Position numbers and translations under genes: made by a program
The notes under the pieces: generated by a model
The model's input: only the letters and a program-made list of their open reading frames with translations
Told to the model about the DNA's origin: nothing
The model's database searches: none
Assembly (NCBI GenBank): GCA_013285465.1
Contig: CP053449.1
Span: forward strand, 1,509,540-1,573,539
Source of the DNA: Pseudomonadota bacterium
GTDB lineage: Bacteria; Pseudomonadota; Alphaproteobacteria; Micavibrionales; CSBR16-224
DNA length: 64,000 bases
Direction: 5' to 3'
Shown here: positions 12,861 through 17,890 of the stretch, piece by piece
How positions within the stretch are numbered: position 1 is the stretch's first letter
Layout: the number at the start of each line of letters is the position of its first letter

Positions 12861-14678
12861 TTACTGATAGCAAAAAGCCGGTTTCAATCTGAAAGCCGTG
12901 ATGCGCTTTTTCTCGACATGCGTCGCGGTAACACGCCATGTATCCGGCATCTCATCCGCATATGTGGAGACAAAAATTGTATCTTTCCCCGCCCCCGGCA
13001 AATCAGCTTCCGTTTCCAGATAAGCCAGAACTTCACAGCTATTGCCTTCGCATAAAGTGCATTTAATGTCAAAACGTGTTGGTCGTTGTTTGTTGCCGTC
13101 AAGCCACTCTTTCAAAGGTCTGTTCTGACGATTTTTTTCAAGCATGCTTTTTTGAACGCCACCGACAGCCGCATTCAAAAGCGTTTCATCATTCCATTGC
13201 AGTGCTTTAATAAATTTCTCGGCAGCCGCTTCAGCCGCTTTCATTTTAACCTTATCATTCGTTACAATCTGTGCCTTGGTAACGCCACCGGAAGCTTTGA
13301 GTGGCAACAACAGCTCACTATAGGAGGCGTTTGCAGTCGCCAGCGTTTCAGCAAGACCATCGCCTGTAGAGGCCAGAATTTTGCTCCAATCAGATTTTTC
13401 TAAAGGCCACTCGGCACTCAGAATACCATTCGAAAATCTCCGTGATGTGCGCGGGGTTAGCGTGGTCTGTTGGCCGCCGGCATCCACAAAAGCATCGCCA
13501 TGATCAAGGTGATAATCTGTTGTGGCGGTATCAGGATTATAAGTGATGGCGACTTCCGTGCCACGAATACCGCATAATGAAGTGCCGGTTCTAACATTAA
13601 AAGAACTGCGGTAGCCCCAATTTCTGACAAAGCCCCGAACCGTTCCCCTGATTAAATCCAGAGTGCTTTGAGGTGGTCTTTGCATGCCTTTTATAAAGCG
13701 GGTCATTTTCACCTGAGAATCGCTACCGATATTAATGATGGCGCGTCCGGCCTGTCCCTCACTATAAGCCGTATCAAAAACAATACGGGCACGCCCTTCC
13801 GATCCCGTGCGTAGCTCATCACTCATGCGCAACTGGTATCCTCTTTTCACCTGCTTCCAGCGATTGCCTCGGCCACCCGGAAGAACCTCAACACTTTTGT
13901 GTGTGCGTGATACGACCGCAACCACATCAGTGGATGCCCGCTCTGTGCCTATCGCAAGATTATCAAGGTCACGATCAGCTTGCCGCTTTTTCTCAAGCTC
14001 TGCCTCTAGCTCTGCTATGTGGACGCCTAGACTTGGAATACTGTCATAGAAATCCACCAGATTATTATAAGCATTCGTATGTGCATCATAGGTTAAAATA
14101 CCATGCGCCTTTAATATCGGATATCCGGGAAGATAGCGGGCATAGCAAGTCTCAAGATCTTTAATCGCATTTGTGTTCTCATCCTTTAGCTCTTGCGCTT
14201 GCCGACCATAATTACCTGTCGTTTTATTTTGCACTCGGCTGTTCAGCTCATCCAGCGCATCACGCGACTCTATGGCTTTTTTCCGGTATGTACCGCAAGT
14301 TGAAGTGCTTTTAAGGCCGTTCTGTGCCTGATCCAGCTCACGAAAAAACTTGGCTTCTTCAATCTCTTTGATCAGATCCGCTATAGAGGTTTTTCCGGAT
14401 TGCGCTGCGCTTTCAGCATCTTTTGTGACCACAAGCTCTTCGCTATATTGTAAACGGTCCGTGTTGCCACGCAAGAAATCCTGCGTCTCTTTGCGTTTCG
14501 CGCGCGCTGCTTTTTCTGCTTTTTTAAGGCATGCCTCATCTTTTCCACATTCTTTAATGATTTTAATGCGCTGATTATAGTAATCTTCGCCGCTTTGCGC
14601 CTGCACAACAGAGGGCATAAGCATGACGCATAGCGCAATTATGCTTACAAAAATCGAAAGGATATAATCCTGCTTCAT
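12861..14678 (-). CDS. Exported FecR-domain protein
   Basis: 605 residues. A signal peptide (about 1-27, ending VVQAQ) is followed by a Lys/Glu-rich helical region (30-250) with paired Cys (ECGKDEACLKKAEK). A FecR-type domain follows at about 255-415: LRMSDELRTGSEGRARIVF, DLIRGTVRGFV, then the signature FNVRTGTSLCGIRGTEV. The 190-residue C-terminal region holds more Cys (CTLCEGNSC). Stand-alone exported FecR proteins are thought to be envelope sensors or scaffolds, not the sigma regulator FecR itself. It lies in the accessory region and is followed on the same strand 36 bp upstream by another exported protein, so the two probably form one operon. Confidence 0.75.
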   Translation of the reverse strand: MKQDYILSIFVSIIALCVMLMPSVVQAQSGEDYYNQRIKIIKECGKDEACLKKAEKAARAKRKETQDFLRGNTDRLQYSEELVVTKDAESAAQSGKTSIADLIKEIEEAKFFRELDQAQNGLKSTSTCGTYRKKAIESRDALDELNSRVQNKTTGNYGRQAQELKDENTNAIKDLETCYARYLPGYPILKAHGILTYDAHTNAYNNLVDFYDSIPSLGVHIAELEAELEKKRQADRDLDNLAIGTERASTDVVAVVSRTHKSVEVLPGGRGNRWKQVKRGYQLRMSDELRTGSEGRARIVFDTAYSEGQAGRAIINIGSDSQVKMTRFIKGMQRPPQSTLDLIRGTVRGFVRNWGYRSSFNVRTGTSLCGIRGTEVAITYNPDTATTDYHLDHGDAFVDAGGQQTTLTPRTSRRFSNGILSAEWPLEKSDWSKILASTGDGLAETLATANASYSELLLPLKASGGVTKAQIVTNDKVKMKAAEAAAEKFIKALQWNDETLLNAAVGGVQKSMLEKNRQNRPLKEWLDGNKQRPTRFDIKCTLCEGNSCEVLAYLETEADLPGAGKDTIFVSTYADEMPDTWRVTATHVEKKRITAFRLKPAFCYQ

Positions 14679-15452: not shown

Positions 15453-15576
15453 AACGGAAATTCCTTATAATTATAAAATCAATGACAAACAGATTGTTTT
15501 TATACCATAACTAATTTATTGATGTCACGAATGTTTTCTGGCTTTATGCAACCTCCCCCAAGTGAGGAAAGGAAAG

Positions 15577-15774
15577 ATGATGAAGACAAAGATAATAGCC
15601 TTAGCGCTTATTGTCATTGCATTGGGTTTGGCGCTCTTCCTGTTTCGCAATGCCGCACATCAAACGCAAAACAGCAATTCCATTGAACGCGGATTAAATG
15701 CGAAAAACGCCGCTGCGGAAAGACAAAACGCTGTTCCCGTCAGACCTGCCCAGCCCGGTAACAGGGCAAGGTAG
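15577..15774 (+). CDS. Small single-helix membrane protein
   Basis: 65 residues from the ATG at 15577, preceded by a purine-rich site (GAGGAAAGGAAAG); the ATG at 15580 is equally possible. One hydrophobic helix (about 5-23, IIALALIVIALGLALFLF) is followed by a 40-residue polar tail rich in Asn, Arg and Pro. Could equally be a long signal peptide. It diverges from the secreted Gln-rich protein. No family recognised. Confidence 0.5.
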   Translation: MMKTKIIALALIVIALGLALFLFRNAAHQTQNSNSIERGLNAKNAAAERQNAVPVRPAQPGNRAR

Positions 15775-16421: not shown

Positions 16422-16450
16422 TTGTTAAATTATGCCAAACATGATAAAAT
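16422..16450 (+). promoter_or_regulatory. Candidate promoter of the MNIO operon
   Basis: TTGTTA (16422-16427), exact 17-bp spacer, TAAAAT (16445-16450), 100 bp before the precursor start. Inference from spacing and match; no other strong candidate was seen in the 209-bp gap. Confidence 0.45.
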
Positions 16451-16517: not shown

Positions 16518-16531
16518 ATTATGCGCATAAT
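16518..16531. promoter_or_regulatory. 14-bp perfect palindrome ahead of the MNIO operon
   Basis: ATTATGCGCATAAT reads the same on both strands. It lies 4 bp upstream of the AGGAG ribosome site of the precursor gene and about 68 bp downstream of the candidate -10 element, so it falls in the leader. It may be an operator for a dimeric regulator. No regulator gene lies in the operon. Confidence 0.35.
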
Positions 16532-16549
16532 GCATAGGAGTGACGGCAA

Positions 16550-16780
16550 ATGAGCGACGAAAAAATGAACCTTGAAGAACAATCTGAACATGAAGAAAAT
16601 ACAGTACCTTCCGAAAGTACTCCATCAAGAAAAAAGAAATGGAAATTCTATATTGCTCTTGCCGTATTCGCAGGGGTATCTCTTGCACTCGCCTATATGA
16701 GTAAAAAATTTTCAACTCCACCTCCTAGCATCCATCATACGACACTAGGGGGTGGCTGCCCCACCTGCGGATTAGGATGA
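16550..16780 (+). CDS. Putative membrane-anchored MNIO substrate peptide (RiPP precursor)
   Basis: 76 residues with three parts: an acidic leader (1-26), a Lys-rich stop (RKKKWK) and one membrane helix (about 32-50), then a short tail ending IHHTTLGGGCPTCGLG with Cys70 and Cys73. The Gly-flanked CxxC at the very C-terminus, together with a DUF692-type enzyme gene 7 bp downstream, marks it as the likely modified peptide. Positive charge before the helix predicts N-in/C-out, so the Cys motif would end up in the periplasm. There is a good ribosome site (AGGAG, 16536-16540). No known precursor family (MbnA, BufA, TglA) is matched in full. The role is inferred from context and motif. Confidence 0.65.
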   Translation: MSDEKMNLEEQSEHEENTVPSESTPSRKKKWKFYIALAVFAGVSLALAYMSKKFSTPPPSIHHTTLGGGCPTCGLG

Positions 16781-16787
16781 AGCTTAA

Positions 16788-17642
16788 ATGACCTATGAAA
16801 CCGTGCGCACGGGAATTGCATTTTTTCCAAATGATGCGGCGCGGCCTGTCTATCAACAACTGATTGATACGGGGCATGTTGCCGCCCTTGAATGGACGGT
16901 AGACACGCAATCAATCACAGCAGCAGACCAGAAAATTCTGCAAAGCTACGCTGAAAAACAATCATTGGTCGGTCACGGCGTACATTACTCTGTTTTATCC
17001 GTAGGAGGAGAAAAACAACGCCGCACATGGCTTGAAAGGTTAAAGACATGCCCATGGACAGCACATTACACACAACTATCTGTGCATTTCGGCTTTTCAA
17101 GCGGCTGGATATTCAAATATGGCGCTCCCTTACCTGTTCCCTATTCACAAGAAGCCGTTGCCATCGGTCATAAAAATATGGCGACGCTTGCCCAAGCACT
17201 ACCATGCCGCATCGGCCTGGAAAACCTTGCGCTAGGCTTCTGCCGGAAAGATGCTGAAAATCAGGGCGCTTTCTTAGAAGAGTTACTAGCACCTTTTCAA
17301 GGGTATTTACTGCTTGATCTGCACAATCTCTATTGTCAGGCAAAGAACTTTACAATAGAACTTCCAGCTCTTCTCAAAACGTATCCGCTAAAGCATGTGG
17401 AAGAAATGCATATCTCCGGCGGTAGCTGGTCACGCGGTAGCCATACAAAAAATATTCGCCGGGATACACATGATCATGCCGTCCCTGATGAAGTCTGGGA
17501 TATATTGCCCACCGCTTTAGAGGCCTGCCCCAATTTAAAATATATCTTTCTGGAACAACTACCGCACACTCTTGGCAACAAAGAGGCCGCCAATGCATAT
17601 ATTACGGATTACAAAAAACTTGTGAAGATCGTGAAAGGTTGA
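16788..17642 (+). CDS. DUF692/MNIO-family iron enzyme (MbnB/TglH/ChrH-like), divergent
   Basis: 284 residues; the DUF692 TIM barrel is usually about 270-300. Candidate metal ligands follow the family order: His66 (GVHYS), His100 (SVHFG), Glu145 (LENLA), Asp177/His179/Asn180 (LLDLHNLY), His208 (MHISGG), Asp226-His228-His230 (RRDTHDH, then VPDEVWDIL) and Glu256 (FLEQ). Members are multinuclear non-haem iron oxygenases that remodel Cys or Asp/Asn residues in peptide substrates (methanobactin, 3-thiaglutamate, bufferins). It lies between a Cys-tailed membrane peptide (7 bp upstream) and a 70-residue protein (3 bp downstream). The usual DUF2063 partner gene is absent. Assignment to the fold is firm; the reaction is unknown. 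Confidence 0.85.
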   Translation: MTYETVRTGIAFFPNDAARPVYQQLIDTGHVAALEWTVDTQSITAADQKILQSYAEKQSLVGHGVHYSVLSVGGEKQRRTWLERLKTCPWTAHYTQLSVHFGFSSGWIFKYGAPLPVPYSQEAVAIGHKNMATLAQALPCRIGLENLALGFCRKDAENQGAFLEELLAPFQGYLLLDLHNLYCQAKNFTIELPALLKTYPLKHVEEMHISGGSWSRGSHTKNIRRDTHDHAVPDEVWDILPTALEACPNLKYIFLEQLPHTLGNKEAANAYITDYKKLVKIVKG

Positions 17643-17645
17643 TGA

Positions 17646-17858
17646 ATGCTGCGCAACCCGTTTAAAAAGAAAACACCGCTGGAGCATTTTCAAACTCGGC
17701 TTTTGCAGATGCTCGCCTTGCAAATGCCCCCCGAGAAAATTACAGAGCAACTTTTGCAAGACAAACAACTTGCCGATTATCACGCCTATATTAAAGAATT
17801 TGATCCCGCCATGATCGAGATTGCAGAAGAGCTCGTCCAAAAATGGAGCGGACGATAA
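17646..17858 (+). CDS. Small helical protein, third gene of the MNIO operon
   Basis: 70 residues, no membrane segment, all-helical and charged (PLEHFQTRLLQMLALQ, PEKITEQLLQDKQL, PAMIEIAEELVQKW). The ATG is 3 bp after the MNIO stop, so expression is coupled. By position it may replace the DUF2063/RRE-type partner that normally presents the peptide to the enzyme, but it shows no sequence likeness that I recognise. A bidirectional terminator follows directly, which ends the operon. Confidence 0.65.
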   Translation: MLRNPFKKKTPLEHFQTRLLQMLALQMPPEKITEQLLQDKQLADYHAYIKEFDPAMIEIAEELVQKWSGR

Positions 17859-17864
17859 AAAAGA

Positions 17865-17890
17865 CCGGAAAATTATTTTCCGGCCTTTTC
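17865..17890. terminator. Bidirectional rho-independent terminator (MNIO operon / pepA)
   Basis: CCGGAAAAT/ATTTTCCGG forms a 9-bp perfect stem (17865-17873 with 17875-17883). It has CCTTTT on the right and, read from the other strand, CTTTTTT on the left. It lies between the convergent 17646 and pepA genes. Confidence 0.8.

Follow-up and report, generated by a model that had tools for sequence, protein, structure and literature searches.

Background

The ChrH subfamily of MNIO enzymes is defined by precursors that end in CPxCGxG, and its members lead to a macrocycle/hydantoin product (PMC10214503, PMC12636315). ChrH-type enzymes bear an additional C-terminal helical bundle of approximately 7.8 kDa. 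In Cyanobacteria this bundle is encoded on its own as MelHc; it binds to MelH, and modification depends on it (PMC12636315). The survey text names Bacteroidota, Cyanobacteriota, Myxococcota and Planctomycetota, and describes split enzymes for Cyanobacteria only (PMC12636315). The subfamily, the tail, the product and the split C-terminal domain are therefore already known from these two papers.

The characterised enzymes differ in their products. MelH together with MelHc as well as the Dyb, Chs and Hym enzymes were reported to give a loss of 4 Da only, ChrH was found to methylate also in the absence of ChrI, which was later shown to be dispensable, and ArlH yields a mixture of both products (PMC12636315). 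For DybH the tail CPACGMG suffices as substrate and Pro is tolerated at the third position of the motif. Furthermore, the natural variant HymA (CPGCGLG) was modified experimentally with a shift of -4 Da (both PMC12636315). The authors of the survey likened the macrocycle to nisin's B ring, which binds lipid II (PMC12636315). The subfamily is not known for products that chelate metal.

We analyzed a cluster of three genes within the window, that is, the whole stretch of 64,000 nucleotides of alphaproteobacterial DNA studied here. An earlier note on this DNA had presented it as a probable new MNIO RiPP system. By its sequence the cluster falls into the published ChrH/DybH/MelH subfamily (PMC10214503, PMC12636315), and we consider it quite likely that it represents, as a whole, a minimal split-form cluster of this subfamily working as set out below.

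Composition of the cluster

The cluster consisted of three ORFs on the plus strand with 76, 284 and 70 codons, separated by gaps of 7 and 3 bp (Table 1). All three ORFs and the C-terminal tail GGGCPTCGLG of the first were found exactly where the earlier note had placed them.

Table 1. Features of the cluster, given as positions within the window
Feature	Position	Strand	Basis
Shine-Dalgarno-like AGGAG, 5' of the precursor start	16536..16540	+	read from sequence
Precursor gene A, 76 aa	16550..16780	+	only C-terminal CPxCGxG match in the genome
CPTCGLG, predicted modification site (Cys70, Cys73)	16757..16777	+	agrees with the motif CPxCGxG of ChrH-subfamily substrates
Gene of MNIO enzyme H, 284 aa, ChrH-like TIM barrel	16788..17642	+	PF05114, NF050165, fold, ligands
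TGA TGA ATG junction: double stop followed, in the enzyme's frame, by the ATG of the third gene	17640..17648	+	
Hc, separate ChrH C-terminal helical domain, 70 aa, four helices	17646..17858	+	profiles, L031 homology, model
Hairpin of 8 bp, T-runs on both strands; likely terminator for both directions	17865..17883	.	read from sequence

The cluster had also been described as framed by a promoter-like element and a bidirectional terminator. The hairpin fits a terminator that the cluster shares with the aminopeptidase gene convergent to it; the number of terminator-type sites was not above that in shuffles. The case for the promoter-like element is weak, as it is a single weak site (16422-16450, 9-of-12 match) of a kind no commoner in the window than in shuffled sequence.

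The neighbouring genes encode an ankyrin protein, an M17 aminopeptidase and a FA desaturase. ChrI (DUF1772), ChrE and ChrP were absent beside the cluster, and genes for DUF2063, MbnC or DoxX proteins were not present at it either. Located 5' of the ankyrin gene, an ORF of 70 aa (15562-15774) comprises a single hydrophobic span followed by a polar tail and had no family match above the cut-off. Further upstream, a 605-aa protein on the minus strand (12861-14678) matched FecR weakly with 22 bits (cut-off 24).

Enzyme H

Enzyme H matched the Pfam family PF05114 (DUF692/MNIO) with E = 2.3e-32 and 112.7 bits (cut-off 25). Among the NCBIfam profiles the best score was that of ChrH (NF050165) with 247 bits, followed by BufB (94), HvfB (77), ApyH (33) and MbnB (18.5). 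The scores for BufB, HvfB and MbnB stayed below the respective cut-offs of 310, 360 and 325 bits. The ChrH score was also far below the equivalog cut-off of 600 bits, even with Hc joined, and we therefore regard H as a ChrH-like relative and not as ChrH itself.

The AlphaFold2 model of the enzyme had a mean pLDDT of 81.5 and a pTM of 0.75. It aligned to MbnB, TglH and 3bww with Z scores of 21.8-23.5 over 235-265 residues, compared to approximately 17 for other TIM barrels. Family match and predicted fold together make the assignment of H to the MNIO enzymes a firm one.

The iron ligands of TglH are His71, His107, Glu151, Asp184, Asn187, His216, Asp229, His231 and Glu258 (PMC10880893). When a profile of seven ChrH-like enzymes was aligned to TglH, the equivalent residues of H were H63, H100, E145, D177, N180, H208, D226, H228 and E256, an assignment that derives from the alignment. 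All nine were invariant in the seven proteins. Six of the ligands read earlier are among them (His100, Glu145, Asp177, His208, His228 and Glu256). However, the proposed His66 has to be replaced by His63, since position 66 is variable in the seven relatives (H/E/F/H/L/E/K). His179 is conserved, yet the position aligned to the TglH ligand is Asn180; Asp226 had been missed.

In a maximum-likelihood tree of 36 MNIOs, enzyme H was found in the starred clade (99/97) of nine ChrH-like enzymes, its nearest neighbours being the enzymes of the other two trios in the order (96/93). This clade was apart from the 24 other MNIOs of the order plus G796, including the second MNIO of the same genome. In the tree a Hymenobacter relative served as stand-in for ChrH, DybH and MelH. 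The earlier note had suggested a comparison with characterised families and a tree as a check: ChrH scored best (247 vs 94 bits for the next family) and the clade is ChrH-like. Judged by profile and tree, enzyme H belongs to the ChrH/DybH/MelH (chryseobasin) subfamily.

The second MNIO of the genome (L001, G000:C1:556311-557090) combines MNIO and DUF2063 in one chain of approximately 541 aa. Its locus also contains a Lys/Cys-rich ORF (KANSCGAHGCKAKSEKNACKGK..., with many CK repeats), a possible bufferin-like precursor.

Many MNIO products are copper ligands. The earlier note had accordingly considered a copper- or metal-binding peptide, and a bufferin/oxazolin or methanobactin-like copper peptide, on which H would form a thiooxazole or oxazolone-thioamide, has in its favour that H is an MNIO and that the tail of peptide A contains two Cys as well as a His-His pair. 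However, the scores for BufB (94), HvfB (77) and MbnB (18) are far from the 247 bits for ChrH, neither EGKCG nor the bufferin Cys pattern is present, and the cluster lacks the DUF2063, MbnC or DoxX genes. Additionally, the tree excludes H from the other MNIOs of its order, and nothing in the neighbourhood of ankyrin, aminopeptidase and desaturase genes points to copper. The characterised CPxCGxG products are also described without the chromophore of thiooxazole or oxazolone-thioamide groups (PMC12636315). We found no support for metal binding and consider a copper peptide very unlikely. TglHI, MbnBC and BufBC/HvfBC have the MNIO fold and the iron ligands in common with H but differ from the window system in substrates, partners (RRE/DUF2063-like, MbnC) and products.

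The third gene

The match of the ChrH profile did not end with H but ran across the two TGA codons into the 70-aa ORF, up to position 361 of 363. With H and Hc joined, the score rose from 247 to 257-258 bits and the match spanned 342 of the 363 profile positions. A profile built from two fused C-terminal domains (Hymenobacter volaticus WP_245125988.1 and L042) found Hc with E = 1e-8 and its counterpart in L031 with 5e-8 among 1,059 ORFs. The search in the reverse direction was weaker (Hymenobacter at E = 3.5e-4), so the match of Hc outside the order is modest. Within the order, Hc and the small gene of L031 were 43% identical over 56 aa.

Four helices were predicted in the model of Hc (pLDDT 84). 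Hc had no Pfam match, and a fold search with Hc alone gave no significant solved structure, a result without bearing on its family because the structures listed include none of ChrH. From the profile matches, Hc is the separately encoded C-terminal helical domain of ChrH-type enzymes. The 70-residue partner is thus not of a new kind. A DUF2063-type partner was considered for this gene as well and rejected, since it lacks a Pfam match. In other respects the earlier note was right: the MNIO cluster is self-contained, its membrane peptide has a Cys tail and the partner is not of the DUF2063 type.

The junction between both genes reads GGT TGA TGA ATG in the frame of the enzyme. In L031 and L044, the two nearest relatives, Hc overlaps the enzyme gene in another frame, which favours a genuine split over read-through or recent breakage. 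A decaying cluster, in which two TGA codons have broken and inactivated a fused enzyme, would explain why H and Hc share a frame and are separated by exactly TGA TGA before the ATG. However, the nearest relatives are split as well, in overlapping frames, all ligands and the tail are intact, and Hc keeps its own start codon and conserved residues. We therefore regard decay as highly unlikely.

Read-through of both codons into one fused chain would likewise agree with the common frame, and an artificial read-through model does fold (pTM 0.75). Against this stand the two consecutive stops with an ATG immediately behind them and the different frames in the relatives; moreover, a separate MelHc is described as functional in Cyanobacteria (PMC12636315). 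Read-through thus appears extremely unlikely, and we treat H and Hc as two chains.

The closest described system in this respect is MelA1/MelH/MelHc of Melainabacteria, to which the window enzyme is likened through the published description. It likewise combines a barrel with a separate C-terminal domain and a CPxCGxG substrate, and has no DUF2063 partner (PMC12636315). However, MelA1 is described as a secreted 34 kDa TPR protein with a Sec signal, in contrast to the 76-aa peptide with an internal hydrophobic span in the window.

The precursor peptide

Peptide A starts with 32 mostly polar residues (acidic, then RKKKWK), followed by a hydrophobic span of 18 residues (33-50, mean hydropathy 2.06) and a 26-residue tail. 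Cys70 and Cys73 are its sole cysteines and both are part of CPTCGLG. A lipobox Cys after an N-terminal hydrophobic stretch, by which DAG-RiPPs are recognised, is absent from peptide A, and since there are no other Cys residues, lipidation of the DybA type is excluded. The positive charge of RKKKWK in front of the span suggests that the peptide is probably orientated with its N-terminus inside and its C-terminus outside. Cleavage after Ala48 (A-L-A) is possible.

The genome of 2.67 Mb contained a single instance of the DNA pattern for CPxCGxG followed by a stop, located 7 bp ahead of the enzyme gene, and the reversed control gave none; the arrangement is more than a chance occurrence. Across the 142 genomes of the order 28 matches were found, compared to 7 for the reversed control, and the pattern alone is therefore unspecific. 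Most of these matches were read, and those formed the ends of short stretches without a plausible gene except beside ChrH-like enzymes.

DybA/DybH and HymA/HymH of Bacteroidota likewise have a CPxCGxG tail encoded directly upstream of the enzyme, and the end of HymA differs from that in the window by a single residue. In contrast to the split enzyme and non-lipoprotein precursor of the window, these systems are described with a fused C-terminal domain and lipoprotein precursors (PMC12636315). The chryseobasin system ChrA/ChrH/ChrI of Chryseobacterium also carries such a tail (CPACGMG), and H and Hc match the profile of its enzyme; unlike the window, it is described with a fused enzyme, an S-methylated product and a Sec-cleaved precursor (PMC10214503).

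Proposed modification

H is the iron-dependent MNIO barrel and Hc the helical bundle, which forms one chain with it in Bacteroidota and also in a single relative from the phylum of L033. By analogy with the characterised relatives that act on the same motif, Hc would bind H as a separate chain and activity would depend on it, as with MelHc and MelH. H and Hc together would, in the cytoplasm, recognise the C-terminal CPTCGLG of peptide A and carry out a four-electron oxidation with the loss of four hydrogens (-4.03 Da). In analogy to DybH, HymH and MelH/MelHc, the iron centre would bind the tail through its thiols. The second Cys of CPTC, Cys73, would be activated by hydrogen abstraction from its C-beta; attack by backbone amides, scission and rearrangement of thiol and backbone would then lead to the hydantoin, and Cys70 would close a small macrocycle (steps by analogy to PMC10214503 and PMC12636315). 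Leu at the penultimate position should be acceptable, since HymA is modified, and Thr at the third position of the motif should be tolerated, because DybH accepted Pro there. The peptide would subsequently be inserted by its single hydrophobic span, with the modified tail held at the outer face of the inner membrane.

The -4 Da state is the probable one for the product, although ChrH methylates its substrate and ArlH gives a mixture. The same cluster could also lead to the S-methylated (+10 Da) chryseobasin form or to both forms, the more so as ChrH was reported to methylate without ChrI (PMC12636315). However, the split MelH/MelHc and the Dyb, Chs and Hym enzymes are described with -4 Da as the only outcome (PMC12636315), and the window enzyme has no special closeness to ChrH, as its profile score is far below the cut-off. 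A methylated product or mixture is therefore rather unlikely, and methylation would not be expected as the main outcome.

Distribution of the cluster

ChrH-like enzymes were found in 3 of the 142 genomes of the window's order, each time arranged as precursor(s), then enzyme, then Hc. The trio of G040 (L031) carries a 39-aa signal-less proline-rich peptide ending CPACGRG, that of G1023 (L044) two tandem signal-less proline-rich precursors with the ends CPGCGMG and CPACGRG. The test set by the earlier note, whether a Cys-tailed peptide and the small gene recur beside related enzymes, thus had a positive outcome.

Among 385 genomes sampled evenly from the class and 398 from the phylum, the ChrH profile found only the window's own genome, and hence the cluster is rare. 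A scan of genome contigs with the single enzyme sequence found no relative; with a two-sequence alignment it found three loci, one of which (L033) belongs to another MNIO family. Viral contigs and PHROGs gave no match. In G002, of the same genus, the aminopeptidase gene is 82% identical but a different gene is located beyond its 3' end, and the trio is therefore patchily distributed.

A plasmid of Hymenobacter encodes a fused enzyme of 377 aa, 41% identical to H, with an ORF ending CPACGMG just upstream. This ORF (L034:3731-3898, 55 aa, upstream of WP_245125988.1 of Hymenobacter volaticus) is unannotated and lipoprotein-like, and the plasmid-borne cluster adjoins plasmid replication genes. Three further relatives belong to the phylum of L033: L042 has a fused enzyme and a peptide ending CPACGRG, L041 a split enzyme and a peptide ending CTACGRG, and L040 a split enzyme and a lipoprotein-like CPPCGRG peptide approximately 3 kb upstream. 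No recognisable precursor was present in the DNA read around L043, a divergent member.

L032 and L047 have CLACGLG-tailed peptides with a Sec-like signal, and their enzymes are shortened at the C-terminus. They form a ChrH-like side branch (L032:3854-4774, L047:1321-2265) with Leu instead of Pro in the motif, retain roughly the last helix of the C-terminal domain, and may reveal the essential part of this domain.

According to sequence comparison, the cluster extends the ChrH subfamily to Alphaproteobacteria and the split enzyme beyond Cyanobacteria. Neither Pseudomonadota nor Alphaproteobacteria are mentioned in the text of the 2025 survey, supplementary lists aside (PMC12636315). Precursors with a CPxCGxG tail that are predicted to be membrane-spanning, as in the window, or signal-less, as in the relatives of its order, appear to be new as well; the texts of PMC10214503 and PMC12636315 gave no description of either. 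The split enzyme is thus not peculiar to Cyanobacteria, and a very small system of 76-aa substrate, 284-aa barrel and 70-aa putative activator is at hand for probing the role of the C-terminal domain.

Within one order the tail is conserved and everything before it varies, from membrane-spanning to signal-less and proline-rich, which bears on the purpose of capped tails. A tentative reading, in our view unlikely but worth stating, is that a macrocycle resembling the B ring of nisin on a peptide anchored in the inner membrane would be a fixed structure displayed in the envelope and not a secreted product. Together with the signal-less proline-rich relatives, the modified tail might then serve as a portable C-terminal cap across compartments.

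SbmA/BacA-like transporters are known for the transport of proline-rich peptides. A gene of this ABC transporter family and a GH130 gene were found convergent to the trio (L031:6071-7822, L077:9918-11627), an arrangement that belongs to the two relatives with signal-less proline-rich precursors and could be genus-level synteny alone.
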